NCBI RefSeq assembly: GCF_000189635.1
Contig: NW_002476352.1
Span: forward strand, 62,001 to 126,000
DNA length: 64,000 nt
DNA from: Tetrahymena thermophila SB210
Taxonomy: Eukaryota; Ciliophora; Oligohymenophorea; Hymenostomatida; Tetrahymenidae
Reading direction: 5' to 3'
Shown here: in pieces, positions 11,905 through 64,000 of the stretch
Layout of the letters: the number at the start of each line of letters is the position of its first letter
Position numbering within the stretch: position 1 is the first letter of the stretch
Notes under the pieces: model-generated
Told to the model about the DNA's origin: nothing
The model's database searches: none
The model's input: only the letters and a program-made list of their open reading frames with translations
Position numbers and translations under genes: made by a program

Positions 11905-14900
11905 TCAAAATTGATATAATTAGAAAGCATTTTTACTTTTAATTATATTAGTTAATATATTTTTATTTTATTTTTTGCTCAGTTAATAGATAATTTACTT
12001 AATCTCATTATCAGCCATTTCATTTTAGCTCAACAATTCAAATCCTTTTTCTGCATTCCAGATTTTAAAAGTCTCCTCATCGTGTTAGCATGTTATGAGA
12101 TATTTACCATCAGCAGAAAATAAAACTTAGGAAATATAAGTTGTAAGTCCTTCAATATTTTTTATCAGTTAAAATCCATTTTGTAGATTCCAGATTTTGC
12201 AAGTTTTGTCTAGTGAAGCAGTTGCAAGATACTTGCTATCTGCAGAAAAAGCAACTGATAGAATACTACTGTTATGTCCTTCAATCTTATTAACGAGTTC
12301 AAAACCATTTTTGACATTCCAGATTTTACAAGTGGTATCATCTGAACCTGTTGCTAGATACTTGTCATCAGCTGAAAATGCTACTGATTAAATAGTCTTA
12401 TCATGCCCTACAATTTTATTTGTAAGTTCAAATCCTTTTTCTAAGTTCCAAATTTTGCAGGTGATACCCTCTGAAATTGTGACAAGATACTTTCCATCTG
12501 ATGAAAAAGAAGTTGATGACTGATTGCTATTATATTTATCAATGCTATTTATTAGTTCAAACCCAGTTTCTACATTCCAGATCGTACAAATATTTAAAAA
12601 TGAGCCAGTTGCAAGATATTAGTCATCAGTAGAGAAAGCATTTGAGTAAATATAACCTGCATGATCTTAGATTGTATATACAAGTTCAAATTCTTTCTCT
12701 ACACTCCATATTTTACAAGTTTTATCTCTTGAACCTGTAGTGAGATACTTGCTATCTGAAGTAAAAGCAGCTGAGTAAACATTATCGGTATGACCAGTTT
12801 CAATTTTATTTATCAGCTCAAATCCGTTTTGCATGTCCCAGATACAACCATTTTTTTAAGAAAATGTTGCTAGATACTTGTTATCTGTTGAAAAAACAAC
12901 TTTTTAAATAAATCTAGTCTCCCCTTCAACCCCGTGTATGACTTCAAATCCTTATTCTACACTCCAAATAAAGCAAGTGCTATTATCGTCATCTATTCCT
13001 GTTGCTAGATACTTGCAATCAGCAGAAAAAGTAACTGATATAACTTATTTATCAAATCCTTGCATAACTTTGATGAGCTCGAATTCATTTTCCACTTCCC
13101 AAATTGAGCAAGTTTTATCTTGGGAACCTATTGCAAGATATTAACCATCTGGAGAAAAAGCAACTGAATTAACTGATTCACTATGTTATTCAATAGTAAT
13201 AATAAGTTCAAAACCTTTATGTACGTTCCAGATTTTGCAGGTATTATCATCTGAACCAGTTGCTAAATACTTGCCATTTGTAGAAAAAGCAACTTATCGT
13301 ATATTTGAAGTATGCCCTTCGATTGTATTTATGAGTTCGTAACCTTTTTCTATATTCCAGATTTTGCAAGTGCTATCCCAAGAACCTGTTGCCACATACT
13401 TGCCATCTGCAGAAAAATCAATTGAGTAAATACACTCAGTATGCCCTTCATTACTATATATAACTTCAAATCCTTTTTCTATATTCCAGATTTTACAGGT
13501 TTTATCATCTGAACCTGAAACGAGATACTTACTGTCTGCAGAAAAAGCAACAGAGTTTATTAAAGAAGTATGTCCTAGAATTGTATTGAATAGTTCAAAT
13601 CCTTTTTCCACATTCCAAATTTTGCAAATTTTATCATTAGAACTAGTTGCCAAATATTTGCCATCTGTAGAAAAAGTAACTGATGTAATTTAATCTCTAT
13701 GTCCTTCAATTTTATTTGTAAATTCAAATCCTTTTTCTATATTCCATATTTTGCAGGTATTATCATCTGAACCTGTTGCTATGTACTTTCCATCTGAAGA
13801 GAAAGCAACAGAGTAAACAGTTTTCCTTTCTTCAATAGTAATAACAATTTAAAATTCTTTTTCTACATCCCAGATTTTGCAAGTACTATCGAAAGAACCT
13901 GTTGCAAGATACTTGCCATTTGGTGAAAAAGCAACTGACTAGATTGCTCTATCATGTCCTTCAATGCTATTTATCAGTAAAAATCCTTTTTGGATATCCC
14001 AAATTTTGCAAGTAAAATCACTTGAAGCCGTTGCTAGATACTTGCTATCCGAAGAAAAAGCAACTTAATTTATTGCTTTTTGATGTTCTTTGATTGTACT
14101 TATGAGTTCAAAATCTTTTTGAGCATTCCAGATCTTACAAGTATTATCCCTTGAACTGGTTGCTAAATACTTTCTATCAGAGGAAAAAGCTACTGAGGTA
14201 ATCTTTTCTGTATGTCCTTCAATTTTAGTAAAGAGTTCAAATCCTTTATCTACCTTCCATACTTTGCAGGTCTTATCCTAAGAGCCTGTAGCAACATATT
14301 TACCATCTGCAGAAAAAGCAACAGATGTAATCCAACTAGTTTCTCCTTCTATTTTATTTAGCAAGTCAAATCCTTTTTCTACATTCCAGATTGAACAGGT
14401 TTTATCTTCAGAGCCTGTTGCTAGATATTTGTTATCTACTGAGAAAGCAACTGATGAAATACTACCTTTATGCTCTTTGATTGTATTTTAGAGTTAAAAT
14501 CCATTTTCAACAACCCAGATTTTGCAAGTTGTATCTAAAGAACCTGTGGCAAGAAACTTCCCGTCTGAAGAAAAAGAAACAGAAGATAATGCTTTAGTAT
14601 GTCCAGTTTCAATTGTATTAATGAGTTCAAATCCGTTTTCTAAATTCCAGATTTAGCATTTCTTATCATCGGAACAAGTAGCAAGATATTTACCATCATG
14701 AGTAAGAGATGAAAGAGTTAAACTAGAGGGAAAATTTTGAATATTTTTTATGATTTAGAGGCTTGATAAACTATAAATGTCAATTTCTTGGTTTTGAAAA
14801 GTGATAATGTTATTATTTGTTAATAAGGACTGCTCAGCTTAGATTCTATTTACATCAAGGAGCTTGAAACCACTTTAAATGTCACCGTAAAATACTTAGT

Positions 14901-17900
14901 TGGAAACTAATGTAGCAAGGTATTTTGAATTATTGATTGTTAAATTGGAAATAGGGAAGGAAAATGTAAAAGTATTAAGTATTTCAAAAGTTTCAGTATT
15001 TATCTCAAATAAAGACTTTTTTGCACTAACAACGAATATATTTTTGGGGTTGATTAAATGAATAGTTTTCAAAGGGGAATTAGTAATATGCTTTGAAATG
15101 AGCTGTTTATAAGATTTATTGTTATTGTGTTTAATATCAAATTAATTTATATAACCAGTTTTTGTGATAGTTACAAGAGTATTTTTATAAAAAATAACTT
15201 GATTAAATGAGAAAACATCTTCAGTATCACAATATTTCTAGAAACCACTAAAAACTGCATTTCTGGTGTTTGAAGTTTCATAATTTTCTAAATTTTATCT
15301 TTCTATCAATGAATCATTCAAATTGCAATCTATAAATTCAACTGATCTAGCAGGTTTAGAAGATATGTATGTTTAGGAGAATGAACATTTTTTGAAAATC
15401 AAATGAGGATAAGAAAATTTAGAAACAAAAAGAGCAGACAATAAGTTAGAGGCTCCAATATCTATATCGCTTATTTAAGTTTACTTAGAAATCGTAGATT
15501 TTTTAATGAATTATATGTATTTGTTTGTTTTAGAAATGTCATCCTGAGTATAAGTTTACTTAAAAAATGGTGAGCAAAGATAAGATTTCATTAATTTGTA
15601 AAGCTTTAAAAGAATTTATTACTCTGAAGCATTTTTTTAGTTGCTCATTATGATTCTTTTGTTAATATTAAATTATTTCAGTTATTAAATATCTAGCTTG
15701 AAGACATTATCTTAATGCAAATCGAAATCATATTTCATGGCTCTAGCAGCAAAATATTCAAAAAGAGACTTGTGTCTGAACTCAAATTCTTATTTTAAGT
15801 CTTCTCTTTCGACTTTCTATTTCTCAGTTTGAGACTATGTTTATTTAGATTTTGTTTATTCATTAAATTTCAATTAAATCCTTGTTACAACTCTAGAATC
15901 AACATAATTGTTTAATTTTTCAATAAGATCATCAACATTTATTTTACTTTTTTTGAAGAAAGCAGAAACTTCTTCTCTGATTTTAAATTAAATAGAATCT
16001 CTTGTTGTTGAAAGATAATTTGATTTTTAACCTTTTTAAATAAACATGTGCATCGCAATAAACTAGAAATATTCAAAGTAGCAAGATTCTACTTTTTCCA
16101 TTAATTCTTATTTTTACATATCAGTGATACTTAGTTTTTTCTATTATTCAATGAAAATTTTAGATTGTTTTTTGAACTGTTATGAAAAAAAGAGTTCTTA
16201 AATCTCAATCTAATCAGAGACTTCTTAAAAAGCATTGGATATATTTTCATTATTAAGGTCTAAATCATTAATCATTCTGGTTGCGAGATACAAATTTATT
16301 GGCAGCTTAAGCAATTAAGTCAATTATTTATTTTTAAAAATAATATCTTTAAGCTTATCATGCTATTCAGGATTAAAATCTTTGGTATTTTTTGACTATT
16401 GTTTATACTTTGATAAATAATCTTCGATGTCTTGATGAGTAATTTTTTCAAGTTTGAAGATTGCAAAAGAATTATTTTGACCTTTCATCCCTTGCGAATC
16501 ATAGTAGTTAAAGTAGATTTTAGCATCAGAAACTGTGATTTTTTCTAATCTAGAAGTTACGATAATTAAAGTATTCACCCACTCATTAAGTTTCAATTTA
16601 TGATAAACTTTAAAATAGTCTCCGTTGTATTCATCATAACCATCAAGCATGATTAGCTTATTTCTCTCAGATTTCTTTAATAAGTCAATATCTTTTCTCT
16701 ATATATTTACGGATTCTAGATAGTCTTCAATAGAAGGATTCTTACTGTCTAAAGAGTTGCATTTTATTATTAAAGGTATAAAATCTGATCTGTTGTCTTT
16801 GGTGTAATCTGAATCCCGATTCAGAAGTTCAACTTCTAACTTCTTTAAAAGCATTGACTTTCCAGATCCTCCTTCAGCTAAAATTGATATGATTTTACAT
16901 GATTATTCATTATTTTTTTGATTATTTTCTTCATCTCCCTCCTCTTCTTCTTAAATATCATCTTAAGAAACTACGAAGTTAGGAATGAGGAATTGATCAA
17001 TAATTTATTTGACTGCGTCTTTTTCTTCTGTGTTAATTTCTTATCCCTCTATATAAGTTATCTGTTAATTGACATATAAATGAATAGCTTCAAGTAGAAC
17101 ATCATCCTTGTGTGCCATTTAGAGCATTTTTTATCTTTATTCAACACTTTGCTTCCAAATTTCGACATAATACTTAGCTAGCTGCTTATCTAAATCATTT
17201 TCATTTTAAATGTCATATGCAAATTCATTATATTCTTATTTGTCGTCTAAATGCTTAGTAATTTGGTTTTTGAATTAATTTATTTGTATTAAAATTTGGC
17301 TCTTATCAAGGTGATTATGAATGAAATCAGCCAAAATTTAATTGTTTTAATAGGTAATCTTAACAGACTTTTGTTTTTCCTACAAATAGTTTGAGACTAT
17401 ACCAATCATTAAAGCATCAAATTCATTTTTTTTTTATAGTTGAGAGAGGATTTAGGCAAAATGTAAAAGCAACTAAGCTTTTAAATATCTAAATTGGTGA
17501 TTTTTGACCATAAAATTAGCTAAATTTTTAAGCTTATTAATGATACCGTCAGAGTATTCTTCAACTTACAAGAACTTTGATTAATTAATAATTAGTTCTA
17601 GCTTATTTTCTTTTTGCAATCTATTAGATAGCTCTTTAAAATTATCCTTTTTTTGCTACTTAGATAACAAATAATTTAATTGCATATAAACAAATAATCT
17701 TGTGTCATTATTTGTAATTTTTTCAGATTCTTCCAAATAAAAAATAATTTCTAAAATGTTATCAGAAAGATTATCTCCCATGAATTCAACTTTTTGTAGC
17801 CATAAAGACATCATATTATTGGTTAAATTATTGCTATTATAATTATAAGCAATCTCCTTTCCATCTTTAATAGCTTAAGCTGCAATTTACTTGACTTAAT

Positions 17901-19725
17901 TAAAGAATTTTTTTAATTTATCTAAATCAATTTCTGTTAAATTTTTGATGGCTCCAGAAATACTTACAAATCCTGCTCCAAATTTAACAACTTCGACTAC
18001 TCTTTCAAATATTTTGATTGCAATATGTTTATTAGCTTCATCTAGCCCTATTCTTTGAGAATTTAAAGCTTTTAAAATCTCAAAATATTGATAAAGATCC
18101 AAACATGCATGTCTCTCTTTATTTTCTTTGCAATATATAATGAGTCTTTATATTTTCTCGCCAATTTAATTGATGTCGGATTGTATTGATGATTTCGAAT
18201 CGCTTTATTTAATAATGAGCAAATAATTTATGAGTAAATTAATCAGATCAATCACTTTAAGTCTAATGTCTGTCTAAACTATTTATTCTCTAAAGTCATA
18301 TAATGCATTCTCGATGATTCTTCTGACATGTGTTTCTATTTCTTTTGCACTCACTTCTTCAGTATCAAAATATTCATCATATTTTTTGTTAAATTCTTTA
18401 AAAATTTTTAATTCTTCATAATTTGTATCTTCAGATTTCTAAATTTCAAAATCTTTCTTAAGCTATTCCTTTTCATCAATTATTTTTTCTATTTATTTTT
18501 ATTATTATTACTCTTTTTTTTTTGAATCCGCATTTTTAGAGGTAAGTTTTGGTTTGCTACCACATCCTCCTCCTCCTAAAAGTTTATTTTCCTTGAATTA
18601 GCATTAATCTTAAATCTATTTTAAGGATTTCTATTTAAGAGAACAAGATTATTTGGTTGAATAGTAAATTAGTTTCTATTTAAATTGTGTTATTTGCCTA
18701 CTCTAAATAAGATTGGATAGGTTTGCTCTTTAAGTCTAAGATAAGTCAAAGGTTAATTTTTAACTTGCTAAATTAGATGAAATATTTGAGTATTTTCTTT
18801 CACATTCTTTCGATATGTTTCTCTATTATTCTTATTACTTCTACTTTTCTTCTTAATTTTTGGATTGTTTATTTTATTCATTCCTGCAATATTTTCGGAG
18901 AGCTTTAAATTATTATTAACATTTTTCTTAATTATGAAATAATCCAATGTATTTCATAGCATTCTAATTATCATAGACTCTCATTACATTTTCCTAGTTT
19001 TCATGACCTAAAAATTTCAGAAAATAGCTTTGATGTTATATTTACATCACCTTTTATTAATATTTTTGTAAGATTTAATAGTAAGATCTATTTAGATACT
19101 CTTTCTACCAAGATTCAAGCTATCTGATAGTATTTATTTCTTTATAGACTCTCATAGCATTTTCCTTCTTTTTATGAGCTAAAAATGCTATTATAATACT
19201 TGCAGTCTATCTTGAATTTGCTTCTCTAAGATAAATCTGTTAGATCTATGAGTCAAATCTATTTAATAGCACTTCTCTTTAAAGCTGTCTTTGATTATAA
19301 AGACATTAATGAACAAAAGGAAGATCATATAACTCTTGAATCTCTGTCAAATGATGAGATAACTACTTTAGAATGACCTTCCTCATTTAATTTCTAGTAT
19401 TTCGCACTTGAGGATAAAATTGCTCTTCATCTAAGTGAGAATCCAAATGCTTAAATACCTCTTAAACCTGGTTTTGATCAAATGCAATCAAGTTAATTTC
19501 CTACCTTGTGTTTTCATACTTTTAGAGCAAATTAACTACTCTTGATAGTGTATCAAGATGGCTTAAAATTACCTCAGTTAATACCACTTCTTTAACATAA
19601 ATCTATGGGATTAATTTGAGTTCCTCTAAACTTTACAGTCTAATTATTTTTTCCTACTTTTTTGATACCTTTTAGCTGTTTTTGTTTGAATATTTAACAC
19701 TTTATCCTACTGATTTTACTCTCAT
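11905..19725 (-). CDS. NACHT-WD40 (NLR-like STAND ATPase) protein 1, 21 WD40 repeats
   Basis: A single uninterrupted ciliate-code frame of 7821 nt (2606 aa) starts MRVKSVGQ, a start shared with paralogs, and ends at TGA 11905-11907. The N-terminal ~380 residues are Gln/Lys-rich and divergent. They contain LSQTQRANLSNLI and then LLGGGGCGSKPK near residue 380. A helical region follows, then a NACHT NTPase: Walker A GGSGKS (952-957) and Walker B MLDGYDEY (1026-1033), with IIVTSR shortly after. The segment FRHKSLFEYFAARA (about 1315) matches the motif found after NACHT helical domains in NLRs. A degenerate propeller-like stretch precedes 21 WD40 repeats of 43 aa (about 1660-2560; SVAFSADGKYLATGS, TCKIWNVEKGFEL). 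Twenty-one repeats could form three 7-bladed propellers. Known family behaviour is ligand-triggered oligomerisation; a recognition role here is inferred. Confidence 0.88.
12030..14740 (-). repeat. WD40 repeat array of NACHT-WD40 gene 1 (21 units)
   Basis: The plus-strand hallmark (a/t)tccagattttgcaag recurs 21 times at about 129 bp spacing (12056, 12184, 12317 ... 14509, 14641). Most units encode WN(V/I)EKGFE, the signature of this gene and of gene 2 but not of gene 3. The repeats differ mainly at a few loop positions. Confidence 0.9.
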
Positions 19726-19749
19726 TTTTTTTACTAACACTTTTTCTAC
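19726..19749 (-). promoter_or_regulatory. Conserved 5' leader shared by NACHT-WD40 paralogs
   Basis: Read on the minus strand, gtagaaaaagtgttag followed by an A-run ends directly at the ATG. Very similar leaders precede gene 3 (50212-50231) and the relic at 59925 (59926-59951); gene 2 has a weaker match. It may be a transcription-start or translation-context element, or simply common ancestry. Confidence 0.4.
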
Positions 19750-25044: not shown

Positions 25045-25785
25045 TTTTTAGGTTAAATTATCTTATTACATAATAATTAGGAGCTATTTAAAATTGGACA
25101 AAGATTTTGATCCCAAATTAAACTTTTTCATTAGAAAATCTGTATAATCTTTGAAATATTTACATTTTTGGAAAAATATTAGGATCTTTTGGTACTTACG
25201 TTTATTATGTAAAATATTTATTATAACTCATTAAAACATAAAAAAAACTTATAAATATTAAAATTTAAAGATTTTATTTATTGTAAATGAATATATTTAA
25301 AGTTAACTTGCTTTAAAAGCCTCTAAGTAATATATGTATCTATCTATACACGTATTAATTATTAATATTATCTTAATTATTCAGTGATATATTTAATATT
25401 ATACAAATCTATGTTAATATATTAGCATAAAAAAATTGTTATTTATATATATTAATTGATTGCTTACTATCTTATCCTTTAATAATAATAATCTAAAAAT
25501 AGAAAGTTGTTAGTATATTTGAAAATTAATTAAGATTCTTGTTGATTTTTAACCAATTTCACCTGATAGATAGATCTTTTGATCTATTTACTTTTATTAT
25601 TTAGTTGATTCTCTTCTTTAATTAGAAGAAACAAAGTGATTTTGATATTTATAAATTTTACATCTCTTATATATAAAAACATCTACTTTTAGTAAAAAAG
25701 CAAACCCCTCAGCCTACTTTAAGTAAGTCAGTCAGTACCCCAGTTAACAACATCAGTTAATTAGATAGCGAAATTGAATAGCCAA

Positions 25786-27777: not shown

Positions 27778-28218
27778 AACTCTTAAAAAAAGCATTAAAA
27801 ATAATTAATTTAAAGCAAAATTATTAATATTTTCCTAACAAATTCTATAAAATAAAAATATTGTTAAGAGCTTCATAAAATAAAAATAGCTTATCTTTCT
27901 TAAAATTTTTTATTTTTAAATGAAAAACAAAACACACCAATCATTTTAAATGATCAATTTATATAAATTATATAATAAATTTATTATTTATTTATTTTTA
28001 TTTTTGATGCAAATTATTTATTTATTGTTTTTCATTAGAGAGTCAATATAAAAAGAAATTTTATTTCAGTTATTTTTACATTAATCTCTTAAAATAAAAA
28101 AAATTGATTTTATTTTATTTGGAATATTTGAATTCAACAAATAATTTTATATAAAAAGGAATAAATACCAAAATAGGCACAGTAAATATTTTATAAAATT
28201 AATCAACTGCAACAACAA
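27778..28218 (+). other. Short spacer between the two kinase genes
   Basis: AT-rich, 441 bp, no recognised element. It contains the promoter region of kinase 2 if the start at 28219 is right. Confidence 0.4.
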
Positions 28219-45600: not shown

Positions 45601-48600
45601 TGATAATAAATTGGATGCTCCAATATCAATTTGGCTTTTTTCAGAATTTTTTGAAATCGTAGATTTTTTAATGTATTGTATGTATTTGCTTGTTTAAGAA
45701 ATATCTTCTTTGGCATATATTTTCTTGAAATTCTATGAATCTATTTCAGATTACATTAGTTTATAGAATTTTTAAAGAATTTATGACTCTGATGCATTCG
45801 TTTGGTTGCTCATGATAATTCTTTTATTTATATTAAATTCTTTTAGATGCTTTATATCTAATTTATAGATATTCTCTCTATGAATATCAAAATCATATTT
45901 CATAGCCCTAGCAGCAAAATATTCAAAAAGAGATTTATGTCTGAACTCAAATTCTTAAAATTTATTCTCATCTTAATCTTTCTATTTATTATTTTGGGAT
46001 TGATTGTTATTATTTTGTTAATCAAATTTCAATTGAACTCTTGTAATAATTCTAGAATCAACATAGTTATTTAGTTCTTTAATGAGATCATCGATCTTTA
46101 ACTTATTTTTTTTGAAGATAGTAGAAATCTCCTCCCTTAGTTAAAATTACACAGAGTCTCTTGTTATTGAAAGATAATTTAATTTTTAACCTTTTTAGAT
46201 AAGCATTTTCATAGCAATTGATTAAAAATATTCGAAGTAGCAAGATTCTACTTTTTCGATTAGTTCTTATTTTTCTTATTGGTTTAAATTTAGTTAATTT
46301 TATTTCTCAATAAAAATTTAAGATTGTTTTTTGAATTGCTATTAAAAGAAGAGCTCTTAAATCTCAACTTGATCTGAAACTTAATGAAAAGTCTTTATAA
46401 TTTTTTGATCACCTAGATCGATATCTGCTATCATTCTTGTGGTGAGATATAAATTAATAGGTAACATTAATAATTCAGTTAATTATTAATTTTTATGAAT
46501 AATCTCTGAAAGTTGATTTATTTTCAATTCTCTTTGATTTCCTTACTATTTTTTATATTTTTCTAAATAATCTTCAATGTCCTATTTTGTAATTTTTTCC
46601 AATTTAAAAATTGCATAGGAATTTAATTAACCTTATTTTCCTTAATTATCATAATAACTAAAGTATTTTTTGGCATCAGAAACTGTGATTTTTTCTAATC
46701 TAGAAGTAACAATCACTAGAGTGTTCACCCATTCATTTAATTTTAATTTTTAGTAAACTTTAAAATAATCTCCAGTATATTCATCATAGCCATCTAGCAT
46801 GATTAGTTTATTTCTCTCAGATTTCTTTAACAAATCCACATCCTCTTTTTTTATATTTACAGATTGTAGATAGTCCTCAATCGAAGGTTTTTCTCTATCC
46901 AGAGAGTTACATTTAATAATAAATGGTATGAAATCGGATCTTTGGTCTTTTGTATATTCTGAATCAGTGCCTTTCAGTAGCTCGACTTCTAGCTTTTTTA
47001 GAAGCATAGATTTACCAGATCCTCCTTCTGCTAAAATAGATATGATCCTACACTTATTAGAATTATATTTTTCAATTTTTTGCTGATTTTAATCTTGAAC
47101 ATCATCAGAAGAACTCTCAAAATTAGGGATGAGAAATTAATCAATAATTTATTTCACTGCGTCCTTCTCTTCTGTATTAATTTTATAACCTTCTAAGTAA
47201 GTTATTTGTTAATTAACATATAAGTGTATTGCTTCTAGTAGAGCATCATCTTTGTGACTTATTTCAAGATTTTTCTATCTCTGCTTAACACTTTATTCCC
47301 ACATTTCAACGTAATATTTAGCAAGTAATTTATCTAAATCATTTTCATTTTAAATACTATTTGCAAATTCATAATACTATTATTTATTTTCTAAATGCTT
47401 CATTAACTAATTTTTTTATTCGTTTATTTATATTAAAATTAGAGCTTTATCAAGTCGTTTATGTATGAAATCTGCCATTATCCAATTATTTTTATAAATA
47501 ATTTAAACACATTTTTATTTTTCCTATAAATAATTTGAGACAATATTTATCATGATATCTGTAAATTCATTTTATGCATTTAGCATTAAAAGGATTTAGG
47601 CAAAGTATAAAAGTAACTAAGCTTTAATATATCTAAATTAATTACTTGAGGCAATTAAACTTGCAATATTCTTTATTTTATCAGCGATACTATCAGAATA
47701 ATCTTTAACTTGTAGAATGTTTGATAATTGAATTATTAGTTCTTGCTTTTTTGATTCTTTAAATTTCTTAGTTAATTAATCAAAATTATCTTCAATTTTC
47801 TATTTAGAAAGTAAATAGTTTAACTGCATGTAAACAAACAATTGGATATCTTTATTTGTTATCTTTGGAGATTCTTCTAAATAGAAAAATATTTCTTAAA
47901 TTGCATCATTTTATGAAATATTTTCTCCTAAATATTCAACTTTCTTCAACCATAAAGCTTACATGTTATTGGCAATGTTATTGGTATTATAATCAGAATA
48001 GCCTTTAAGTCCTATTTGTACAGCTTCTGTTGAAGATTTAGAAGTAATTTGTTGAACAATTTATTTAATCTCATTTATAAATTGATTTATTTAATTTAAA
48101 TCTATTTCTGTTAAATTTTTTACGGCTCCTGCAATACTTACAAATCCAGCTCCGAATTTAGCAATCTAAACAATTTTTGAAATGATTTTGACTGCTACAC
48201 TTTTATTAGCTTCATCTAAACCCTATCTTTAAGAATTCAATGTTTTTAGGAAGTCAAAATATTGAAAAAGATCCAAGCATGGAATCTTGTCTTTATTTTC
48301 TTTACAATATGTAATGAGTATGAGCAATTTATCAGTTATTGAGTTAATATCAGATTGAATTGATTATTATGAATTACTTTATCTAATGATTAACAAATAG
48401 TTTATTAACAAGTTAATCATATTTATGACTTTATGTCTAATTTCTTGCCTAACTATTTATTCTCTGTACCTGAATAGAGTCTCTTCAATAATCAATCTAA
48501 CATCTGTTTCTATTTCATCTTCACTAACTGTTTTAGTTGTAAAATACTCACTATACGAATCATTAAACTTTTTGAATCGAGGTTATTCCTCAATTTTTTT

Positions 48601-50211
48601 ATTCTCTTCACTCTAAATTTCGAATTCCTTCTTAAGTTATTCCTATCCATCAATAATTTACTTCATTTACTTATTTTTATTTAATTTTCCTATTTTCGAT
48701 TTGCTACCACAAATTCCTCCTCCTAAAAGTTTATCTTCTGAAGTTTGGATTATGAATTACTATTTGAGTTTTTTATTTGCTTACAGTAATAATTATTCTT
48801 AATTTTCTTATAAATCTTTTGTTGAAAGCTTAAGTTGTCCTTTATTAAAATTATCATAACCATTTTACTCAAAGAGACTTAAGATGTTGATTTTTCTTAA
48901 CTAAATAAAATTATTTTTCGAAAGCCTTAGACTAGAGGATTGATACTCTTCTTGTTAACTAGCTTGATGAGTTTAAATGCAAACTCTATTTGATGTATCA
49001 TTAGATAATTTATTCATTGTAATTTAATTAATTACTTGCTAAGATATACTATTTTAATAATATTTATTTTCATACTTTTTAGTTATCTCATTCTAAAATG
49101 CTTATTTAGTAAGAATAGTGAATAACTTATTATTAAATTTAGTCATTTAATTTTTTTATATTAAATTCAACAGATATACTCTTTAAGGCTGAGAAATTCT
49201 TAAATTTTTTATTGAATTTCCTATATTAATTTTAATGTCTAAATTTAAAATGAATTTTTCCTTTGAATTGTTACTATCTTTTTCTTGTTTTTTCAATATC
49301 TTTTGTTCATCAAATGCTTTAGCGTTTTTTATCTAAATTTATTTTCTTTCTATCGATAAGGCTTTTGAGAGTGATCTTGATTATTATAGAAACAACTTAT
49401 CTAATAAGAATATCTATATTTATTGTTAAGAAAGCTCTCCAAACTTTCTGCTGCCTATTTTAGGAAGAACTTTTTTAAATATTTTTGAAAGTTCTACTTT
49501 TATTTAATTCCTAAAATCACATTCAATTAGTTTTATAGAAAATCTTAATGCATCAATCTTTCGTTAAGCAAAACCATACATTGCTTCACCTGTTTCTTAG
49601 TTTTCTAAGATAAACATTTAACAGCTTTTTAATCTGAATTATTTCTCATCCATTTTTTCATAATAGACTTTTAATTGGTTTTCCTAATTTGTATCTGCTA
49701 TTTTTTTTATTTAAGTAGTGAAATATACCCTTGCTACATAATACTTTTAAATTTAGTCTTTTAATCTATTCAGCATCTAAACCTATGATAGCTTTGCTCT
49801 GTTGTAGAGTTTCTTTACATAGTAAACGTTGGTATGCAACTCTCTATTGCCTATTATATAAAGATATAATTTTTAAAAAATGATTATTCTTATTTATTTT
49901 CTACTCTTGAGCATTCTATTTTGGTCTGAAAAATGATTAAAAGGAAGATCAATATTCTTTGAGCCCTTTTCAAAAAATATCTCTAAGTGCTATCTCTATT
50001 TAATTCCATTTCTAGTTATTCCATTATTTTTGAGCTTATCAGCAGCTATCCTTGATAATAAAAACAGTTATCTTACAATACCTCCATCTAAAACTATTTA
50101 TTTAACTTAAGGGAAGGTTTCTTTAATCTCAGCTTAATTTTTAAACTTTTCCACATTTTTGGTAAGTTTGGTTAAATATTTAGCTTTAGTTCCTACAGAT
50201 TTTACTCTCAT
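42613..50211 (-). CDS. NACHT-WD40 (NLR-like STAND ATPase) protein 3, 17 WD40 repeats
   Basis: A single ciliate-code frame of 7599 nt (2532 aa) starts MRVKSVGTKAKYL and ends KPKQVYQI before TGA. The ~490-residue N-terminus has its own sequence, with only RISQPQRVYLLNLIQ and LLGGGICGSKSK shared. NACHT: EGGSGKSMLLKKLEVELL (about 1062) and LIMLDGYDEY (M1138). FRHKSLFEYFAARA follows near 1425. Seventeen WD40 repeats cover about 1777-2500. Most units read WNVENGFQL instead of the EKGFEL of genes 1 and 2, showing homogenisation within the gene. A divergent segment before the repeats (SLFEINPQNFEIINTFTF) matches the same place in genes 1 and 2. Confidence 0.88.
42735..44880 (-). repeat. WD40 repeat array of NACHT-WD40 gene 3 (17 units)
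   Basis: Hallmark positions run 42748, 42880, 43011 ... 44676, 44806. One spacing is short (43270 to 43380). The gene-specific ENGFQ signature corresponds on the plus strand to tgaaatccattttc, against tcaaatcctttttc in gene 1. Confidence 0.88.
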
Positions 50212-50905: not shown

Positions 50906-53900
50906 TCACAGTTAATAAACTTATTAGAAAATATTTTTAATATTTTAAATCTTTGTCTAACAAGAAACTGCTTAAGTATCGTTATTTTATGCTCCATTTT
51001 TATTCAACAGTTTCAAAACTTTTTCAACATTCCAGATTTTACAAATACCTAAAGAAATGGTTGCTAAATACTTACAATCTTTAGAAATTTTAGAAAAACC
51101 TTCTTAATTACCTTAAGGATGATCTATTTTAATCTCATGAATGAGTTAAAATTCATTTTCTGTATTCCAAATTTTAAATGTAAAATCATAGGAACATGTT
51201 ATTAAATATTTGGAATCTGCAGAAAAACTAACTGATATTTTACTTTTAGGATTAATTTCTATCTTTTTTTTTAGTTTGAATTTATTTTCTACGTTCCAGA
51301 TTTTGCAGTAGCAATCATGTGAAACTGTTACGAGAAACTTCCCATCTGAAGAAAAATCAACTGTATAAATATCTTTTGAGTGTTCTTTAATGTCCTTTAT
51401 AAGTTAAAAATTATTTTCTACATTCCAGATTTTACAAGTTTTATCAATAGAACCTGTTGCAAGATATTTGTAATTAGCAGAAAAAGCAACTGAGGAAATT
51501 TATTAAGAATGGTCTTTAACTGTATTAATTAGTTTAAATCCATTTTCTATATTCCAGATTTTGCAAGTCATATCCATACAATATGTTGCTAGGTACTTGC
51601 CATCTATAGAAAAAGCAACTGGGTTAATTTTATCATTTTGTGCGTTGATAGTTTTTATTAGCTCCAAACCATTTTTAATTTTCCAGATTTTACATGTCGA
51701 ATCTTTTGAACCTATTGCAAGGTATTTACCATCTGAAGAAAAAATAACTGATAAAATCTAATTAGGATGATTCTCAATAGTGTAAATTAGTTCTAATCCA
51801 TTCTCTACACTCCAAATTTTACATGTATTGTCACCTTAGACTGTTGCTAAATATTTGTTATCTGAAGAAAAAATAGCTGAACAAACATTCAAATAATTAT
51901 TGTCACCAATAATCTAATTCATGAGTTCAAATCCTTATTCTAAATTCCATAATTTGCAAGTTTTATCTTTTGAACCTGTTGCTAGATATTTTCCATCTGC
52001 AGAAAAAGCTATTGAGAAAATACAGCTTTCATGTCCTTAAATTTTATTTATGAGTTTAAATTTATTTTCTACATTCCAGATTTAGCAAGTCTTATCATCA
52101 AATGAACTAGTTGCTAGGTACTTGCTATCTGCAGAAAAATGAATTGAAGAAACTTTATTAATATCTTCTTTAATAGTAATTTCTTTTTAGAATCCATCTT
52201 ATACATTCCAAATATTGCATGCGCCATGTGAACCTGATGCGAGATACTTGCAATCAGCAGAGAAAGCAAGTGAGCTAATCTCATTAGTATGGCCAGTTTC
52301 AATTGTTTTAAGCTGTTCAAATCCATCATTTTTTACTTTCCAGATATTTATCATGCAAACACTATTACCTTAACGAGTTGTTGTTGCCAAATAATTACCA
52401 TCAGTAGAAAAAGCTATATGACATATTATATTATCATCACCAGTTTGGATAGTTTTTAAAATGTTAAATTCATTTTCTACATTCCAGATTTTGCATGTAT
52501 TTTAGTAAGAACTAGTTGCAAGAAATTTGCTATCTGGAGAAAATGCAACTTAACAAATTTCTGAAGTAGGATCTTCAATTGTCTTAATATGTTATAATTT
52601 ATCTAGATCCCAGATTTTGCAAGTTTTATCCAAAGAACCTGTTGCAAGGTACTTGTTATTAGCAGAAAAAGCAACCGAAGAGATCTTTTTAGTATGTCCT
52701 TTTATAGTATGTATCATTTATAATTCATTTTTTACTTCCCATAATATGCAAGTATTATCCTAAGAACCTGTTACAAGATATTTACCATCAGCAGAAAAAG
52801 CAACAGAAGAGACCGAATCAGTATGTCCTTCAATAGTATTTATGCATTCGAAGTTATTTTCTACATTCAATATTTTGCAAGTATTATCTTCTGAAGCCAT
52901 TGCAAAATACTTTCCATCTTCAGAAAAAACAATTGAGTTAACTATTTTGTTTTACCCTTCATCAATAGATTTTATTAATTAGAATCCCTTTTCTTTATTC
53001 TAAAATATGGAAGTTTTCTTATTTGAACTGATTGCCAGATACTTACCATCAGGAGAAAAAGCTATTTACGAAATTTAAACCTAACCTTCATCAATACTCT
53101 ATATTAGTTTGAATTTATTTCCTGTATTCAATATTTTACAAATCTTATCATTGATCTTTATTGCAAGATACTTGCCATCTGAAGTAAAGGAAGATACAGC
53201 CAAATTACAAGATTCATTTTTTATCTCTTATATAATTTTAAAATCTGATAAATTATAAATATTAATTTTTTTATTTTAAGAGGCTATGATTGAATTGTTT
53301 AGCATTAAACACTATTTACCTTAAATTTTATTTTCATCTAGAAGTATGAAATCATTTTATAAATCTCCATAAAATATTTATTGTGTGTTTAAGGTAACTA
53401 AGTACATTGAATTATTTATTGCTAAGCTGGAAATAGGATGTGCAAAAGAGAAAGTATTAATTGTCTCAAAAGTTTGAGTATTAATCTCAAATAAAGATCG
53501 AATCGCTCTAATTATAAAAACATTTTTTGTGCTAGCATATTCAATACTTTCCAAACGGGAATTAGTAATTTTTTTTGATTATAATTTTTTACATGGTTGA
53601 TTTTTATTTTGAGAAATTTCAAATTAATTGATATATCCAGTTTTTGTTATAGATACAAGAGTATTTTTATAAAATATAACTTGCTTAAAAGAATAAATGT
53701 CTTCAGTATCAAACTATTTTTAGAAACTATTAAAAGCTGCATTTTTAGTGTTAGAAGTTTCATAATTTTCTAAATCTTGTTAGTGAATAAACGAATCACT
53801 TAAGTTACATTCCTCAAATTAAGCAAGTTTAGGATATTTAGAAGAGATGTAAGCTTAAGAAAATGAGCATTTTTTAAAAATCAAATCTGGAAATAAGAAT

Positions 53901-56900
53901 TTTGAAAGAAAGAGTGCTGATAATAAATTTGATGCTCCAACATCAATTTAGCTTTTTTCAGTGGGTTTTAAAATTGTAGATTTTTTAATAAATTGAATGT
54001 ACTTATTTGTTTTAGATATGTCTTATTCACTATAATTATTCTCTGAAAACTATGAGTGAATATCAATTTACATTAATTTATAAAGTTTTAAAAGAATTTA
54101 TTGCTCTGATGCATTTCTTTGGTTGCTCATGATAATTCTTTTATTTATATTGAATTCTTTTAGTTACTTTATATCTAATTCATAGATATTTTCTTTATGA
54201 ATATCAAAATCATATTTCATAGCCCTGGCAGCAAAATATTCAAAAAGAGATTTATGTCTGAACTCAAATTCTTAACATTTATTGTTTTCCTATTAATCTT
54301 TCTATTTATTATTTTAAGATTGATTCTTAGTATTTTCTGCATCTAATTTTAAATTAATTCTTGTTATGACTTTACAATCAATATAGTTATTTAGATTTTA
54401 TATGAGGCTATTTATATTGAGATTATATTTATTGAAGAGAACAGATACCTCTTCACTTGGTTAAAATTGAATAGACTCTCTTGTTGTTGAAAGATAATTT
54501 GATTTTTAACCTTTTTAAATAAACATTTGCATAGCAATTAACTAAAAGTATTCAAAGTAACATTATTATACTTTTTCAATTAATTCTTGTCTTTAATTAT
54601 CATTTAAATTTAGCTCTTATTATTTTTCAATAAAAATTTGAGATTGGCTTTTGAATTTTTATAAGAAAAAAAACTCTTATATCTCAATCTGATCTGAAAC
54701 TTGCGACAAGCCATTTGAAATTTTTTGATCAGTAATATCAATTTCTTCAATCATTCTTGATATTAGGTATAAATTAATAGGTAGCTCTAGTAATTTATTT
54801 AGCTATTTATTTTTGGATATAATTTCTTTAATTAAATCGTGAAAATCTTTCTTTTTTTTTGAATATTTTTAATACTTTTCTAAGTAATCTTCAATGTCTT
54901 TATCTGTAATTTTTTGGAGCTTGTAGATTCCAAACGAATTATTATTTTTAGCTTATTTTCCTTAGTTATCATAGTAGTTAAAGTACTTTTTAGCATCAGA
55001 TATTGCTATTTTCTCTAATCTAGAAGTTACAATAACGAGAGTATTTACCCAATCGTTGAGTTTTAATTTCTCATAAACCTTAAAGTATTCTCCAGTATAT
55101 TCATCATAACCATCGAGCATGATTAGTTTATTTCTTTCAGAGTTCTTTAACATATCGATGTCTTTTCTCTTTATTTTCACAGATTCTAAATAGTCTTCTA
55201 AAGATGGTTATTTTCTATCTAAAGAGTTGCACTTGATGATAAACGGAATGAAATAAGATCTAGTATCTTTTGTGTATTCTGAATCACGATTCAGTAGTTC
55301 AACTTCTAACTTTTTTAACAGCATTGACTTTCCCGAACCTCCTTCTGCTAAAATTGATATGATTTTACACTTGTTTTAATTTACTTCTTAACTTTAAAAC
55401 TAGCTTTCCTCTTTGTTTTAGCTATCATCAGAAGAAAATACAAAATTTGGAATGAGGAATTATTCAATAATCTATTTTACAGCATCTCTTCCTTCTGTGT
55501 TAATTTTATAACCTTCCTAGTATGTAATCTATTAATTAACATATAAATGAATGGCTTCAAGTAATGCATCATCTTTATGCGTCATTTTTAATTTTTTCTA
55601 CCTCTGCTGCACACTTTATTCCCACAATTCAACATAATTCTTAGCAAGTTACTTATCTAAGTCTATTTCATTTTAAATTTTATATGCAAAATTACTGAAT
55701 TTTTCTTTATCATCTAAATAATCTGTTATTTAATTTGTGTTCTCATTTATTTGATCTAAGATTTATTTTTTAGTAAGATTAAGATGGTTATCATTAAAAT
55801 CTCTAATAATTTAATTGTTTTGATAAATAATTTTAACAGATTTTTCTTTTTCTTACAAGTAATTAGCTATTATATTTATAGTAATATTTTGAAATTAATT
55901 TTAATTTGTCTTTTAAAATATTTTAGCAAAGTATAAGAGTAACTATGCTTTAATATATCTAAATTAAGTGTTTTAAGCTATTAAATTTGCTATCATTTTT
56001 ATTTTATCTAAAATGGTTTCAGAATATTTTTTAACTTACAGATTATTTGATAATTTTATAATAAGTTCTTGCTTTTACTCATTTTCAAATCTTTTAGAAA
56101 TCTTTTAGAAATTATCTTCTATTTATTGCTTTGACAATAAATAATTTAATTGCATGAAAACAAACAATTGTGTGTCTTTATTTACTATTTTAGGATATTC
56201 TTCTAAATAAAACATGATTTCTTAAATTGGATCTTACTGAGAAAGATTATCTCCCAGATAATAAACTTTTCTAAGCCACAATGCTTACATATTATTTGCA
56301 ATATTATTAGAGTTGTAATTAGAATAGCTTTCAAGTCCTTTTTCTGCTAAATCAATTGAAGGCTGATAAATTTTTTTGATAAAATCCTTTATTTCGTTTA
56401 AATCTTTTTATATATTAATAAAATTTTAGAAAACTCCAGCTATACTGACAAATCCAGCTCCAAATTTAGCAACTTGAATAACATTTAAAATAATTTAGGC
56501 TGCAACACTTTTATTAATTTCATCTAAACCTTATCTTTAACCATTCAAAGTTTTTAAGATATCAAAATATTGATAAAGATCCAAACAAGGATGTCTCTCT
56601 TTATTCTCTTTGCAATATATAATAAGTGTTTCCAACTTATTGTTTATTAAGTTAATATCAGATTGTATTGACTAAGTTGACTTGCTTTATCTAATGATAA
56701 GAAAATAATTGATTAATAAATTAATCATATCAATAACTTTATGTCTAATTTTAACTTAAATTATGTCTTCTCTATAATCATAAAGACTATTTTCAATCAT
56801 CCTTCTTACATGTCCTTCTATTTCTTTTTCACTTATTTTATGTTTATTGAAATATATTTTATATTATTCATTAAACATTTTAAAAGTGATTTCATCATCC

Positions 56901-58669
56901 CTTTGATTCTTTTATACATAAACTCTGTTTATAGGCGCAACTTTTGACTTACTGCCACATACTCCTCCACCAAAAAGTTTGTCTTCTTTAAATTTTAATA
57001 TGCTTCTTAATTTTCTAAATTCGCTTTTCTATTTTTTGAGCTCATAAATTTCATACAAATTCAATTTTGATAGTTAAAACAGCTGGAAAATATAATCCCA
57101 ATAAAGTCTAAAGCGATATTCACAATTGATTGGTTATTAATAGCTTTTGTTATTAGTAAATGCATCCTCTTAAATATTTTAAATTTTAAATTATTACTAG
57201 TGATTGTATTAGTTTTTCTAACTATCATATGCAGACTTCCCTGATGATTCAAAATGTGTGTTTATTATCTTAGCAAATGAGAAATTAAAACTTTGTTACT
57301 TCCTCAATCTTAACTGGTTTTCAGAAATAAAGCTTGAAGTTAACCTTTTTGTTTCTTCTTTGAATTAATCTAGATACTAAATTTTATTATTTTCATTATT
57401 TTCTCTTAATTTATGCTTGTAGACATGGCTAATTAATTTTTTATTGAATTAATCTATTTGATTTTTCAAAACTAAATTTTGCAGATTATTTCTTTGAACC
57501 TAGGATATGCTAAAATTAATTTCCATTTATGAAGAAAGACTTTGCTTAAATTTCCTCTGCTAATAGCTATCGCATGTAGCTACTTAAAACCTCCTCTAAT
57601 ATTGTTTATCATCTAGTTTTTTTTGATGCTATTCTCGATTGTCATCATTAATTTTCTAATTTTTATTTTTACTTGTTCCTGGCCTTACTTCAAAGCACTC
57701 CTTTTTTTCTTAATATTAGCTTTTTTTAAGAGTTTCTGTTTACATTTTTCTTAGCATCAACCTTTCACATGTTTTAGATTAGGCTCTCAATGCATTTGAT
57801 ATTTCTCTTTAATTTAATTAACAGGCAACTCGAAATATTTATTAAAGCTTTTCGCTTTTTACTTTAACAAGATTTTTAATTTTTTGATTTGAAAATTCTA
57901 CTTTTTCTTTAATTGAGTTTTAACTTTCCATTATTTCTTCTTTGAAGTTTTCTTGCAAAGAAATTATAAATTCATTTTAACTTAGATATTAAATTTGATT
58001 ATTTACTTCTTATTCATCTCTGTAATTAAGTTTTTCTTTACTTGATAACCTCAACTTACGATTCTCTTCATAAATTGTTTTCATTATTGCTTTCATTTTT
58101 ATTTGCTATTATCTTTTTTGTGCTAAAATTTGAAAAAGTATTCTTGTTTTAGTTTATTTTTGTTTTGTTTTTTCTTCCAAGAGAAGTTCTATTGAGTCTA
58201 TTAATTAATTCAGCCTTATTTTCTTTTAAATTTTTGCTAAATTAAAGAAGCATTGAAGACTAAAAAGGTTAGTAAGCAATTCTTCAATATTTTTCTGATG
58301 AGTATACAGTTATTTTGAAATAATAGTCCATCTTTATTAAGTCTTTTGTTTTTGAAATTGAACAAACTATTGATTTTAATTAAAATCTACCTTCTTTGAT
58401 ACCTTTAGAGCTTGTTTTTTATTGACTTAAAACTATTTTAACTACTACCTAGTGGTTTCATGTTTTTTTAATTGATCAACTATTTCTAATGATGTTTGCA
58501 AATCATACGCAAAATCCTAACTCAAATCTTCTTTTTTCGCCTAAATTAAAGGCATATCTTTAAACTTCTTGATGCTTTTCAATTTAATTTCTTATTTCTT
58601 AGGCTTTGGCATCTTCTTTATTTTTTCCGCTTAATATTTTGCTCTAAATCCCTCTTATATTACTCTCAT
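50906..58669 (-). CDS. NACHT-WD40 (NLR-like STAND ATPase) protein 4, 17 WD40 repeats
   Basis: A single ciliate-code frame of 7764 nt (2587 aa). The start MRVIQEGFRAKYQ is a diverged form of MRVKSVG and was chosen because it aligns with the other starts. The N-terminal ~560 residues are Lys/Gln/Glu-rich with coiled-coil character and share only SISQVQRNNLQNLVL and LFGGGVCGSKSK. The helical block (ERHPCLDLYQYFDILK) leads to NACHT: EGGSGKSMLLKKLE (about 1108) and LIMLDGYDEY (M1184). FRHKSLFEYFAARA lies near 1475. The WD40 array covers about 1826-2550, and the C-terminus is IFQQVYQL. Repeat by repeat it matches gene 5 rather than genes 1-3, including degenerate units 11 and 15-16, so genes 4 and 5 descend from one recent duplication. 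Confidence 0.88.
50995..53200 (-). repeat. WD40 repeat array of NACHT-WD40 gene 4 (17 units)
   Basis: Hallmark positions run 51027, 51163, 51294 ... 52998, 53129. Unit 11 (52340) has an altered core (ttccagatatttatc). Units 15-17 carry attcaat or attctaa instead of attccag. Confidence 0.85.
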
Positions 58670-60581: not shown

Positions 60582-63500
60582 TCAAACAATATAAACTAAT
60601 GAGAAAACAATTTTAATATTTTAATTTTTTTAAGATGAATTTGCCTAAATTTCTTTATTTTATGTTTCATTTTTATTCAATAGTTTCAAACCTTTTTCAA
60701 AATTCCAGATATTAATTGTATTACAATTAGTGGTTGCTAGGTACTTGCAATCTTTAGAAATAGCAGCTAAATCAAAAAATTAATAATCAATTTTTTTATC
60801 CATTTAATAAATGAATTAAAATTTATTTTCTACATTCCAGATTTTAAAATTTTTAAACCTAGGGCATATTACTAAATATTTGGAATCTGCAGAAAAATCA
60901 ACTGAATTTATAAGATAATCCTCTTCTATCGAATCTATAAGTTAGAATCCATTTTCTACATTCCAGATTTTGCAACTTTAATATTTTGAAATTGTTAGGA
61001 GTAACCTTCCATCTGAAGAAAAATTAACTTTATAAAAATAATCATAATCTTTTCCTTCAATTGTTTTTAAGAGTTAAAAACTATTTTCTATATTCCAAAT
61101 TTTGCAATCTAAAGAAGCTGTTGCAAGATATTGGCAATTAGCAGAAAAAACAACTGAGCAAATTCCTTTTTCAAATCCTTCAACCGTTTTAATTAGCTTA
61201 AATCCATTTTATATATTCCAGATTTTGCAAGTCTTATCATTAGAACCTGTTGCTAGGTACTTGCCATCTATAGAAAAAGCGATTGACTCAAATTGATAAG
61301 TATGTCCATCTATAACTTTAATTAACTCGAATCCATTTTCAACTTTCCAGATTTTACATGTGAAATCACCTGAACCTGTTGCGAGGTACTTAGCATCTGA
61401 AGAAAAAGTAATTGAAGAAATAAATATATCATGCCCTTCAATAGTGTAAATAAGCTCAAATCCATTCTCTAAATTCCAAATTTTGCATTTATTATTAGTA
61501 TGTGTAGTTGCTAAATACTTATTATCTGGAGAAAAACAAAGGGAAAAAATTTATTCATGAAAATAATTATCGTTTATCAAACTAATATTAAGCTTAAATT
61601 CATAATCTAAATTCCACAATATGCAAGTATTATCTTCTGAACCTGTTGCTAGGTACTTTCCGTCTACAGAAAAAGCTATTGACAAAACATCATCACAGAC
61701 TTAAATTCCATTGAAGATTTAAAATTTTTCTTCTACATTCCAGATTTAGCAAGTGTTATCAAATGAACCAGTTGCAAGATACTTGCTATCCGGAGAAAAA
61801 AGAATCGAAGAAATTCTATCAGTATGTCCTTAAATAGTTATTACTTGTTCGAATCCATTTTCTACATTCCAAACTTTGCATGTTCTATCTTATGAACCTG
61901 ACGCGAGATATTGACCATCAGCAGAAAAAGCAAGTGAGATAATCTAATCAGCATGGTCAGTTTCAATTTTTTTAAGATGTTCAAATCCATTTTTAATATT
62001 CCAGATATTTACTATGAAAATACTGTGATCATATGCACTTGTTGCCAAATAATTACCATCAGCTGAAAAAGCTACTTGACAAGTTAATCCTGTTTGAATA
62101 GAATTTACAAACTTAAATTTATTTTCTACATCCCAGATTTTGCATGTATCATCCTAATAAACAGTTGCTAGATATTTATTGTCTGGAGAAAAAGCAACTT
62201 AACAAATTCCTGAAGTGTGTTCTCCTATTGTTTATACGTGTTATAATTTATGTAGATCCCAGATTTTGCAAGTATTATCTAAAGAACCTGTTGCAAGGTA
62301 CTTGCTATCAGGAGAAAAAGCAACTGAAGAAATCTTATCAGTATGTTCTAGTACCGTATCTATCATTTATAATTCATTTTATACTATCCAGATTCTGCAG
62401 GTGTTATCATAAGAACCTGTTGCAAGATACTTGCCATCAGCAGAAAAAGCAACAGAAGAGATCGAATCACTATGTGCTTCTATAGTATTTATGTATTCGA
62501 AGTTATTTTCTACATTAAATATTTTGCAAGTGTTATCTTTTGAACCAATTGCAAAATACTTTCCATCTTCAGAAAAAACAATTGAGTTAACTATTTTGTT
62601 TTACCTTTCATCAATAGTTTTTATTAATTAGAATTCCCTCTCTAAATTCTAAAATATGCAAGTTTTATCGCTTGAACTTGTTGCCAGATATTTACCTTTT
62701 GAAGAAAAAGCAAGAGTATTAATAGTCAACCTATGTTCTTTAGTTGTCTTTATGACTTCAAATCCATTTTCTGCACTCCATATTTAACAAGTTTAATCTT
62801 CAAAACCTATTGCGAGGTACTTGTATTCTGAAGTAAAAGAAAATAAATGCATATTCTGAATATCATTTTTTACATTTTTTATAATTTATAAATCTGCTAA
62901 ATTATAAATGTTAATTTCTTTATTTTAAAAAGCTATGATTGAATTGTTTAGCATAAAACATTATTTAGCTTAAATTTTGCTTTCATCAAGAAGAATGAAA
63001 CCATTTTATATATCTCCATAAAATATTTATTCTGTTTTTAACGTAATTAAGTATTTTGAATTATTTATTGCTAAACTGGAAATTCGAAAATCAAAAGTGA
63101 AAGTATTAATAGTCTCAAAAGTCTGAGTATTAATCTCAAATATAGATCTAAATGCTCTAATAATAAAAATATTTTTTATGCTAACATAGTGAATACTTTA
63201 CAAATCAGAATGAGTAATTTTTTTTGATTATAATTTTTTACAAGGTTGATTTTTATTATGAGAAATTTCGAATTAATTGATATATCCAGTTCTTGTTATA
63301 GATACAAGAGTATTTTTATAAAATATAACTTGCTTAAAAGAATAAATGTCATCAGTACCAAATTATTTTTAGAAACCACCCAAAGCTGCATTTTTAGTGT
63401 TAGAAGTTTCATAGTTATCTAAATTTTGATTGTGAATATACGAATGACTTAAGTTACAATCCTTAAATTCAGTAAGTCTAGATTCTTAAGTAAAGATGTA

Positions 63501-64000
63501 AGCTTAAGAAAATGAACATTTTTTGAAAGTCAAATCAGTAAATGAGAATTTTGAAAGATAGAGTGCTGATAATAAATTAGATGCTCCAACATCGATTTAG
63601 CTTTTTTCAGTGGATTTTGAAATTGTAGATTTTTTAATGAATTGAATATACTTATTTGTTTTAGATATGTCTTCTTCGCTATAATTATTCTCAAAAAACG
63701 ATGAATATATATCAGATTACATCAATTTGTAAAGCTTTATAAGAATTTATTGCTCTGATTAGTTGCTCATCACAATTCTTTTATTTATATTAAATTCTTT
63801 TAGTTATTTTATATCTAATTTATAGATATTTTCTCCATGAATATCAAAATCGTATTTCATAGCTCTGGCAGCAAAATATTCAAAAAGAGATTTATGTCTG
63901 AACTCAAATTCTTAACATTTATTGTTTTCTTAATCTTTCTTTTTATTATTTTAAGATTTATGATTAGTATTTTCTGCATCTAAATCTAAGTTAATTCTTG
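60582..64000 (-). CDS. NACHT-WD40 protein 5, C-terminal part (5' part beyond window), 17 WD40 repeats
   Basis: The ciliate-code frame is open from the window edge to TGA at 60582. The visible part begins just before EFEFRHKSLFEYFAARA, so the NACHT core lies outside. It then shows the same linker as the paralogs and 17 WD40 repeats at about 60680-62840 (SVAFSADGKYLATGS-like, WNVENGFE units). The C-terminus is VFSLVYIV, weaker than the KQVYQI ends of genes 2-4. It tracks gene 4 unit by unit (for example the odd unit at 62000 with cagatatttac and the attctaaaatatg unit at 62643), marking the two as closest relatives. Confidence 0.82.
60675..62850 (-). repeat. WD40 repeat array of NACHT-WD40 gene 5 (17 units)
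   Basis: Hallmark positions run 60700, 60832, 60961 ... 62643, 62775. Order and oddities are collinear with the gene 4 array. Confidence 0.85.

Follow-up and report, generated by a model that had tools for sequence, protein, structure and literature searches.

The 64,000-nucleotide stretch of the Tetrahymena thermophila SB210 genome considered here (contig C185, NW_002476352.1, positions 62001-126000; hereafter the window) carries an array of very large genes whose products combine a NACHT-type NTPase with a C-terminal series of WD40 repeats, and which we interpret as candidate NLR-like recognition receptors. In agreement with this species assignment, a TERT exon of the genome shares 67 of 67 residues with the T. 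thermophila TERT in the PDB (2b2a_A). Under the ciliate code (code 6), four complete open frames of 2600-2659 codons occupy the minus strand of the window, and a fifth on that strand is truncated where the window ends. This agrees with the original prediction, made from the sequence of the window, of five same-strand paralogs with one open frame each. That prediction had also described GGSGKS and LDGYDEY motifs in the four complete copies and EYFAARA in all five, and these are indeed intact. A full-length alignment reveals one domain order throughout the array proteins, which are ~2500-2600 amino acids long: a divergent N-terminal part, a helical part of ~500 residues, the NACHT-type NTPase, the EYFAARA motif, a linker, and the WD40 units. 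Three of the four complete frames become shorter when read from a conserved MRVK/MRVI start. Among the six proteins of the whole array, this start is MRVK in four, where it falls within the frame or at its edge, and MRVI in a fifth; in the sixth, it sits at the second codon of the stop-to-stop frame.

Gene 1 (11905..19725, minus strand, like all the array features given here; 2606 amino acids from an MRVKSVG start, within an open frame that extends to 19845) displays the complete arrangement. Its N-terminal region contains an LGGG-type motif, LLGGGGCGSK (18553..18582), and its best Pfam stretch for NACHT spans residues 991-1095 (16561..16875), under the Pfam cut-off in this gene. The Walker A motif GGSGKS (16855..16872) and the Walker B motif LDGYDEY (16627..16647) are followed by the EYFAARA motif, which closes the NTPase module (15739..15759), and by 20 WD40 repeats, mostly of 43 amino acids (12031..14607, ends approximate). 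The same order recurs in gene 2 (34198..42000; 2600 amino acids; LLGGGGVCGSK at 40450..40482), gene 3 (42613..50211; 2532 amino acids from MRVKSVG, in a frame extending to 50538; LLGGGICGSK at 48700..48729), and gene 4 (50906..58669; 2587 amino acids from MRVIQEG, in a frame extending to 58885; LFGGGVCGSK at 56948..56977). Gene 5 is represented in the window by its 3' part (60582..64000), comprising the end of the NTPase module and the WD40 array; it runs past the window in a frame open to C185:130618 and is complete on the contig. Counted by repeat anchor, there are 20, 17, 16, and 17 WD40 units in genes 1-4 and 16 in gene 5, close to the 17-21 initially estimated. The Pfam WD40 profile alone recovers 18, 15, and 13 stretches in gene 1, gene 3, and the partial gene 5, respectively.

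A search of the 101.0-Mb genome (445 contigs) with the core of gene 1 returned 38 matches. With pieces of one gene merged by position, these group into 29 loci of a single family plus two truncated relics. The analysis below covers 27 of the 29 loci; those at C122:1090191 and C160:155902 stand outside the set. A further NACHT protein on C78 (C78:438841-439209), left out of the 29, matches the end of the family core weakly and is possibly a thirtieth locus. The relic copy originally suspected in the window was not recovered there by tblastn, and the two truncated relics (C185:139642-139932 and C196:14520-14765) both lie outside it. The array continues past the window with a sixth gene (g6, C185:131831-139441), so that C185 carries six genes; close copies reside on contigs C260 (two, C260a and C260b), C110, and C196. 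No telomere repeat is visible by eye at the end of C185 (141776), and hence the assembly may have truncated the array. When the 27 cores are placed in a tree, those of the ten genes on C185, C260, C110, and C196 form one group (support 87/80), within which genes 4 and 5 (g4-g5) and g6-C260a-C260b-C110-C196 constitute two young clades, each with 100/100 support. The dS between recent paralogs is ~0.27, and the frames of ~2500 codons remain open in most copies. The C110 core is split over two overlapping frames (C110:68022-68139), reflecting a frameshift or an assembly error. The cluster is tandem, as first proposed, and recently duplicated, but it is not continuous, with a gap of ~14 kb between genes 1 and 2. 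No relatives were found in IMG/VR and prokaryote genomes, in a search that is coarse for this query. The genes themselves are not new, and presumably carry domain-based names in the public annotation of T. thermophila; a description of the family, of its pattern of selection, or of any NACHT-WD40 family in a ciliate was not found in literature searches whose longer hit lists were viewed in part.

The NTPase motifs are retained across the family. The Walker A lysine and the Walker B aspartate are present in all 27 members, and the serine of the Gly-Lys-Ser triad in 26. In hidden Markov model searches, the NACHT profile (PF05729) matches 25 of the 27 cores and the nSTAND_NTPase5 profile (PF25199) likewise 25 (E<=0.01), whereas the NB-ARC profile is matched by one member only. 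By these sequence features the family is one of NACHT/STAND-type NTPases, in line with the assignment first given to the window genes. The NACHT cut-off is exceeded at 12 places in the genome, with window gene 1 alone remaining below it (22.8 of 26.7 bits). Isolated matches to other profiles were also obtained, namely PADLOC mad8 in two of the 27 members and the NCBIfam antiphage EruA in one. The highest-scoring NACHT match in the genome (55.5 bits) belongs to a different NACHT protein (C182:426737-427162), which the family core search missed.

The N-terminus, predicted to be divergent, is in fact the most divergent part of the six array genes, with a mean identity of 28% as against 76% in the 15 columns around the LGGG motif. 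Across the family, a GGG followed by a cysteine within three residues, mostly as [LI]LGGGxC[CG]S[KR], is present in 24 of the 26 members whose N-terminus is in view (that of C115_258k is not). Of the two exceptions, C114 has the GGG without the cysteine, and C116_599k has no such motif in the available stretch. An SQxQR-type helix motif lies upstream of it in 16 of the 26 sequences scanned. The persistence of this island within a fast-changing region suggests that the LGGGxC-type element may be a shared binding or assembly motif; roles as an amyloid-type motif, a site of lipidation, or an LxGG protease site are purely speculative. Three protein queries for a partner gene sharing the N-terminal motif matched family members only, although the first was insensitive (it reached 2 places, while 24 members carry the motif), and absence of a partner is not implied.

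To examine how the sensor part changes, we turned to a precedent from fungi. According to Paoletti et al. 2007 (PMC1805685), codons 7, 9, 25, and 27 of the fungal NWD repeat are positively selected; they flank the conserved positions 8 and 26 and lie on the top face of the propeller. These four positions were fixed beforehand as the test set, and the Tetrahymena repeats were placed in the fungal numbering, a match inferred from two anchors, the conserved V/I (8) and D (26). Two sets of recent paralogs were compared, the young five-gene group (g6, C260a, C260b, C110, and C196) and the second clade, g4/g5. In the former, the Nei-Gojobori ratio of nonsynonymous to synonymous change (dN/dS) takes values of 0.22 for the NACHT domain, 0.31 for the helical part, 0.32 for the linker, 0.71 for the N-terminus (to which C110 contributes no data), and 0.80 for the WD40 array, with the synonymous distance (pS) being similar across these parts (0.21-0.23; 0.31 in the motif). 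In g4/g5, the linker, N-terminus, and WD40 array give 0.58, 0.78, and 0.77.

Within the WD40 arrays, rapid change is found mainly at repeat positions 7, 9, 25, and 27 (plus 5 and 6), the positions expected of a recognition surface, in line with the fast-evolving locus originally proposed. At the four test positions, all pairs of the five genes together give a dN/dS of 1.73 (bootstrap 1.25-2.36); in the pairs C260a/C260b and g6/C196 combined, these positions are the four fastest of 43, with a dN/dS of 2.08 (1.30-3.33). The bootstrap excludes 1 for these pooled pairs and spans it for the single pairs C260b/C110, g6/C260b, and g4/g5. When C196 is left out and gap-free repeats alone of the remaining four genes are used, the loop positions still show 1.61 (1.11-2.45) versus 0.45 in the rest of the repeat (Fisher p 1.3e-11, over pooled, non-independent pairs). 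In this reduced set, g6/C260b gives 1.45 and C260a/C260b 2.25 individually, and g6/C260a and C260b/C110 together give 1.46 (0.85-2.94). Codon likelihood for the five-gene group assigns the four positions (59 codons) an omega of 1.61, versus 0.39 for the rest of the repeat, here also excluding positions 5 and 6, with twice the log-likelihood difference (2dlnL) being 22.2; the corresponding values for the NACHT domain, helical part, and linker are 0.19, 0.23, and 0.30. When g4/g5 is added to the five genes under one shared omega, 2dlnL relative to an omega of 1 is ~4.5 (p ~0.03 from the chi-square table, 1 degree of freedom). As judged from these substitution patterns, the constraint acting on the remainder of the repeat does not extend to the loop positions, where diversifying selection is likely.

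The location of the variable sites is in itself less informative. Among 102 repeats of six family genes, the positions of highest entropy are 7, 25, 9, 6, 27, and 5; however, in 23 ordinary repeats taken from 10 other WD40 loci in this genome, positions 5, 25, 6, 7, 9, and 27 rank 2, 3, 4, 5, 6, and 8. Entropy was therefore dropped as evidence of selection: since variable-site location is a general property of WD40 repeats, it proves little alone, and the case rests on dN/dS. Positions 18 and 19 behave differently, being variable in ordinary repeats (ranks 1 and 9) and among the slowest in the family (19 in all three gene sets, 18 in two). What is special here is the speed of change between recent copies, for which no equally young pair of ordinary WD40 genes was at hand as a dN/dS control. 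Concerted evolution of the repeats was sought and not found: of 100 repeats, 16 have their best match within their own gene, compared with 16.0 expected, and mean DNA identity between repeats is 0.583 within genes and 0.576 between genes. Within-gene repeat identity averages 0.31-0.48 in nine of the ten genes compared and 0.22 in C196. The repeat at the same position is the best match for 14 of 15 repeats in C260a/C260b, 13 of 15 in C260b/C110, 13 of 16 in g4/g5, and 11 of 16 in g6/C260a. In g6/C196, this holds for only 2 of 16 in an ungapped comparison. C196 has an ordinary NACHT domain (86-89% identical to its four sisters) and a WD40 array that is only 55-56% identical to theirs. The WD40 part of C196 (~C196:6251-8300) shows scattered one-residue gaps near positions 24-27. 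In the five-gene group, pS is equal in the WD40 (0.230) and NACHT (0.225) parts, indicating that the compared repeats are about equally old.

The closest parallels to this architecture are the NWD proteins HET-D and HET-E of the fungus Podospora anserina, which likewise form a multigene family with a NACHT domain followed by a WD40 array and show fast change at the same four repeat positions beside the conserved 8 and 26 (PMC1805685). Unlike them, the Tetrahymena proteins yielded neither a HET domain nor another known effector in scans of four N-termini, reach ~2500-2600 amino acids with a helical part of ~500 before the NACHT domain, and possess repeats that are not homogenized, whereas the fungal repeats are up to 100% identical and serve as units of exchange. 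More broadly, Dyrka et al. 2014 (PMC4986451) describe fungal NLRs as tripartite, with a central NACHT domain and a C-terminal superstructure-forming repeat, approximately half of them being without an annotated N-terminal domain. The Tetrahymena proteins share both the tripartite plan and the unannotated N-terminus; however, while fungi swap WD, ANK, and TPR sensors, the sensor here is WD40-like in the members whose C-terminal part was read, with no swap noticed. The animal NLRs (NLRP, NOD2, NLRC4, NAIP) have in common with the family the NACHT NTPase, but differ in that their sensor is made of leucine-rich repeats (LRRs) rather than WD40; no CARD, PYD, BIR, or death-fold domain was detected in the four N-termini scanned. 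APAF-1 similarly couples a STAND NTPase to WD40 propellers, and its chains appear among the first 60 PDB entries matched by sequence when a WD40 stretch of gene 1 is the query. In this case, the difference lies in the NACHT-like character of the Tetrahymena NTPase, as opposed to NB-ARC, and in the lack of a CARD in the same four N-termini. Within the genus, Xiong et al. 2019 (PMC6564038) list WD40 and P-loop NTPase among the seven top domains of species-specific genes, which like the present family are fast-evolving and tandemly arranged, and propose bacteria recognition for LRR genes, with both bacterial food and defense being discussed. NACHT does not occur in the main text of that article, and no NACHT-WD40 receptor family is described in the sections consulted.

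The directly observed features, namely the domain order with intact NTPase motifs, the recent tandem duplication, the conservation of the NTPase module, and the fast change of the sensor at loop positions, fit a receptor with a conserved switch, a sensor whose contact loops would turn over, and an N-terminus with one fixed signal. Our preferred interpretation, to which we give a probability of roughly 0.6, is that of an NLR-like family of recognition receptors with diversifying propeller faces. Under this interpretation, intracellular STAND NTPase receptors would form a Tetrahymena family in which the 16-20 repeats fold into perhaps two to three propellers. The WD40 array may bind rapidly changing partner proteins via exposed loops at positions 5-7, 9, 25, and 27; binding would release the NACHT module for nucleotide exchange and oligomerization, and the N-terminal region could relay the signal, possibly through the LGGGxC-type motif. 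The presumed role would be the recognition of microbes or other non-self. A more ambitious version sees a repertoire of ~30 loci with a diversifying propeller face and its own N-terminal signal (SQxQR helix plus LGGGxC) unrelated to known death folds, which would make it an instance of NLR-style recognition in a free-living unicellular eukaryote that arose independently of, or long before, fungal HET-E; this we advance tentatively, at somewhat short of even odds.

Several results weigh against the receptor interpretation. The pair g4/g5 shows weaker constraint on its NTPase parts (NACHT 0.42, helical 0.62), gives by itself 1.63 (0.84-3.80) at the four positions, and has its fastest positions in the order 25, 5, 6, 7, 3, and 27. 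The closest pair, C260b/C110, gives 0.85 (0.43-2.00) at the four positions, and for the five-gene group by itself, likelihood does not place omega significantly above 1 (2dlnL 2.66). Ordinary WD40 repeats place the four positions at variability ranks 3-8 of 43. No known effector or death-fold domain, and no Pfam family over its cut-off, was found in the N-terminal regions of window genes 1-4. Both AlphaFold2 models, built with the four window paralogs only, are of low confidence, with a predicted local distance difference test score of 32.9 over 961 residues and 48.5 over the 231-residue NTPase core. Finally, profile searches of PDB sequences matched no NLR. A Foldseek search with the low-confidence core model does place human NLRP7 first (E 9.7e-5, template modeling [TM] score 0.39) and includes NLRP3, NOD2, NLRC4, and NAIP5 among the first 50; with AAA+ proteins ranking close behind NLRP7, this is weak support, and TM scores of 0.3-0.4 at a root-mean-square deviation of ~10 A, mixed with AAA+ ATPases, are no evidence of NLR membership.

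Of the alternatives, the one that survives best accepts a sensor but assigns it non-pathogen targets, such as bacterial food, or fast-evolving proteins of the cell's own genome or of mobile elements. The species-specific WD40 and P-loop NTPase genes of Xiong et al. 2019 (PMC6564038), and the discussion there of food beside defense for LRR genes, lend it some color. Nothing specific speaks against it, as sequence data do not separate ligands, and we regard it as unlikely, though the strongest of the rivals. A little less probable is a relaxation of constraint, whereby the WD40 arrays are redundant scaffolds drifting after duplication, with no recognition involved. Recent duplicates are often less constrained, the g4/g5 ratios are raised in the NACHT and helical parts too, variable loop positions are common among WD40 repeats, and the support for an omega above 1 is weak. 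Drift, however, sits poorly with the constraint on the rest of each repeat in the five-gene group, with the sharp likelihood difference between that remainder and the loop positions, and with the ~2500-codon frames that stay open in most copies, the frame break in C110 notwithstanding. Considerably more doubtful is allorecognition in the manner of HET-D/HET-E, in which genetically different conjugation partners would be sensed while cytoplasm is shared, and the pair blocked or killed. The NACHT-WD40 order and the fast change at the four repeat positions recall the fungal allorecognition genes, but the four scanned N-termini have no HET domain and there is no sign of fungal-type repeat exchange. 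To our knowledge, moreover, no vegetative-incompatibility system is known in Tetrahymena. Microbial or other non-self ligands are the more likely choice, although the present data do not distinguish them from allorecognition. The least probable view of all, that the fast repeat change is an artefact of misaligned or exchanged repeats, draws on the divergent, gapped array of C196 and its poor positional match to g6, but runs against the excess that persists in gap-free repeats without C196, the equal pS of the WD40 and NACHT parts, and the positional homolog being best for most repeats in the four other pairs.

Animals, plants, fungi, and bacteria are all known to have NLR-type receptors, and the use of such receptors by free-living protists has hardly been studied; under the receptor interpretation favored here, NLR-style recognition may also operate in a free-living cell. 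Because knock-outs, tagging, and growth on defined bacteria are straightforward in T. thermophila, the question is directly testable. The pattern of change points to the residues to be swapped in tests of specificity, and the conserved N-terminal motif offers a handle on the putative signaling mechanism.

Other genes in the window lie around and within the array. The ~14-kb gap between genes 1 and 2 contains a thioredoxin/protein-disulfide-isomerase-type gene with Thioredoxin_6 and Thioredoxin matches (21013-22281, minus strand) and fragments of at least two protein kinase genes, with frames split as by introns (25636-29428, plus strand). Cysteine-rich fragments in several overlapping frames at 2777-5937 (plus strand) match the Furin-like_2, GF_recep_IV, and Giardia VSP profiles, and are probably exons of one growth-factor-receptor-type gene.

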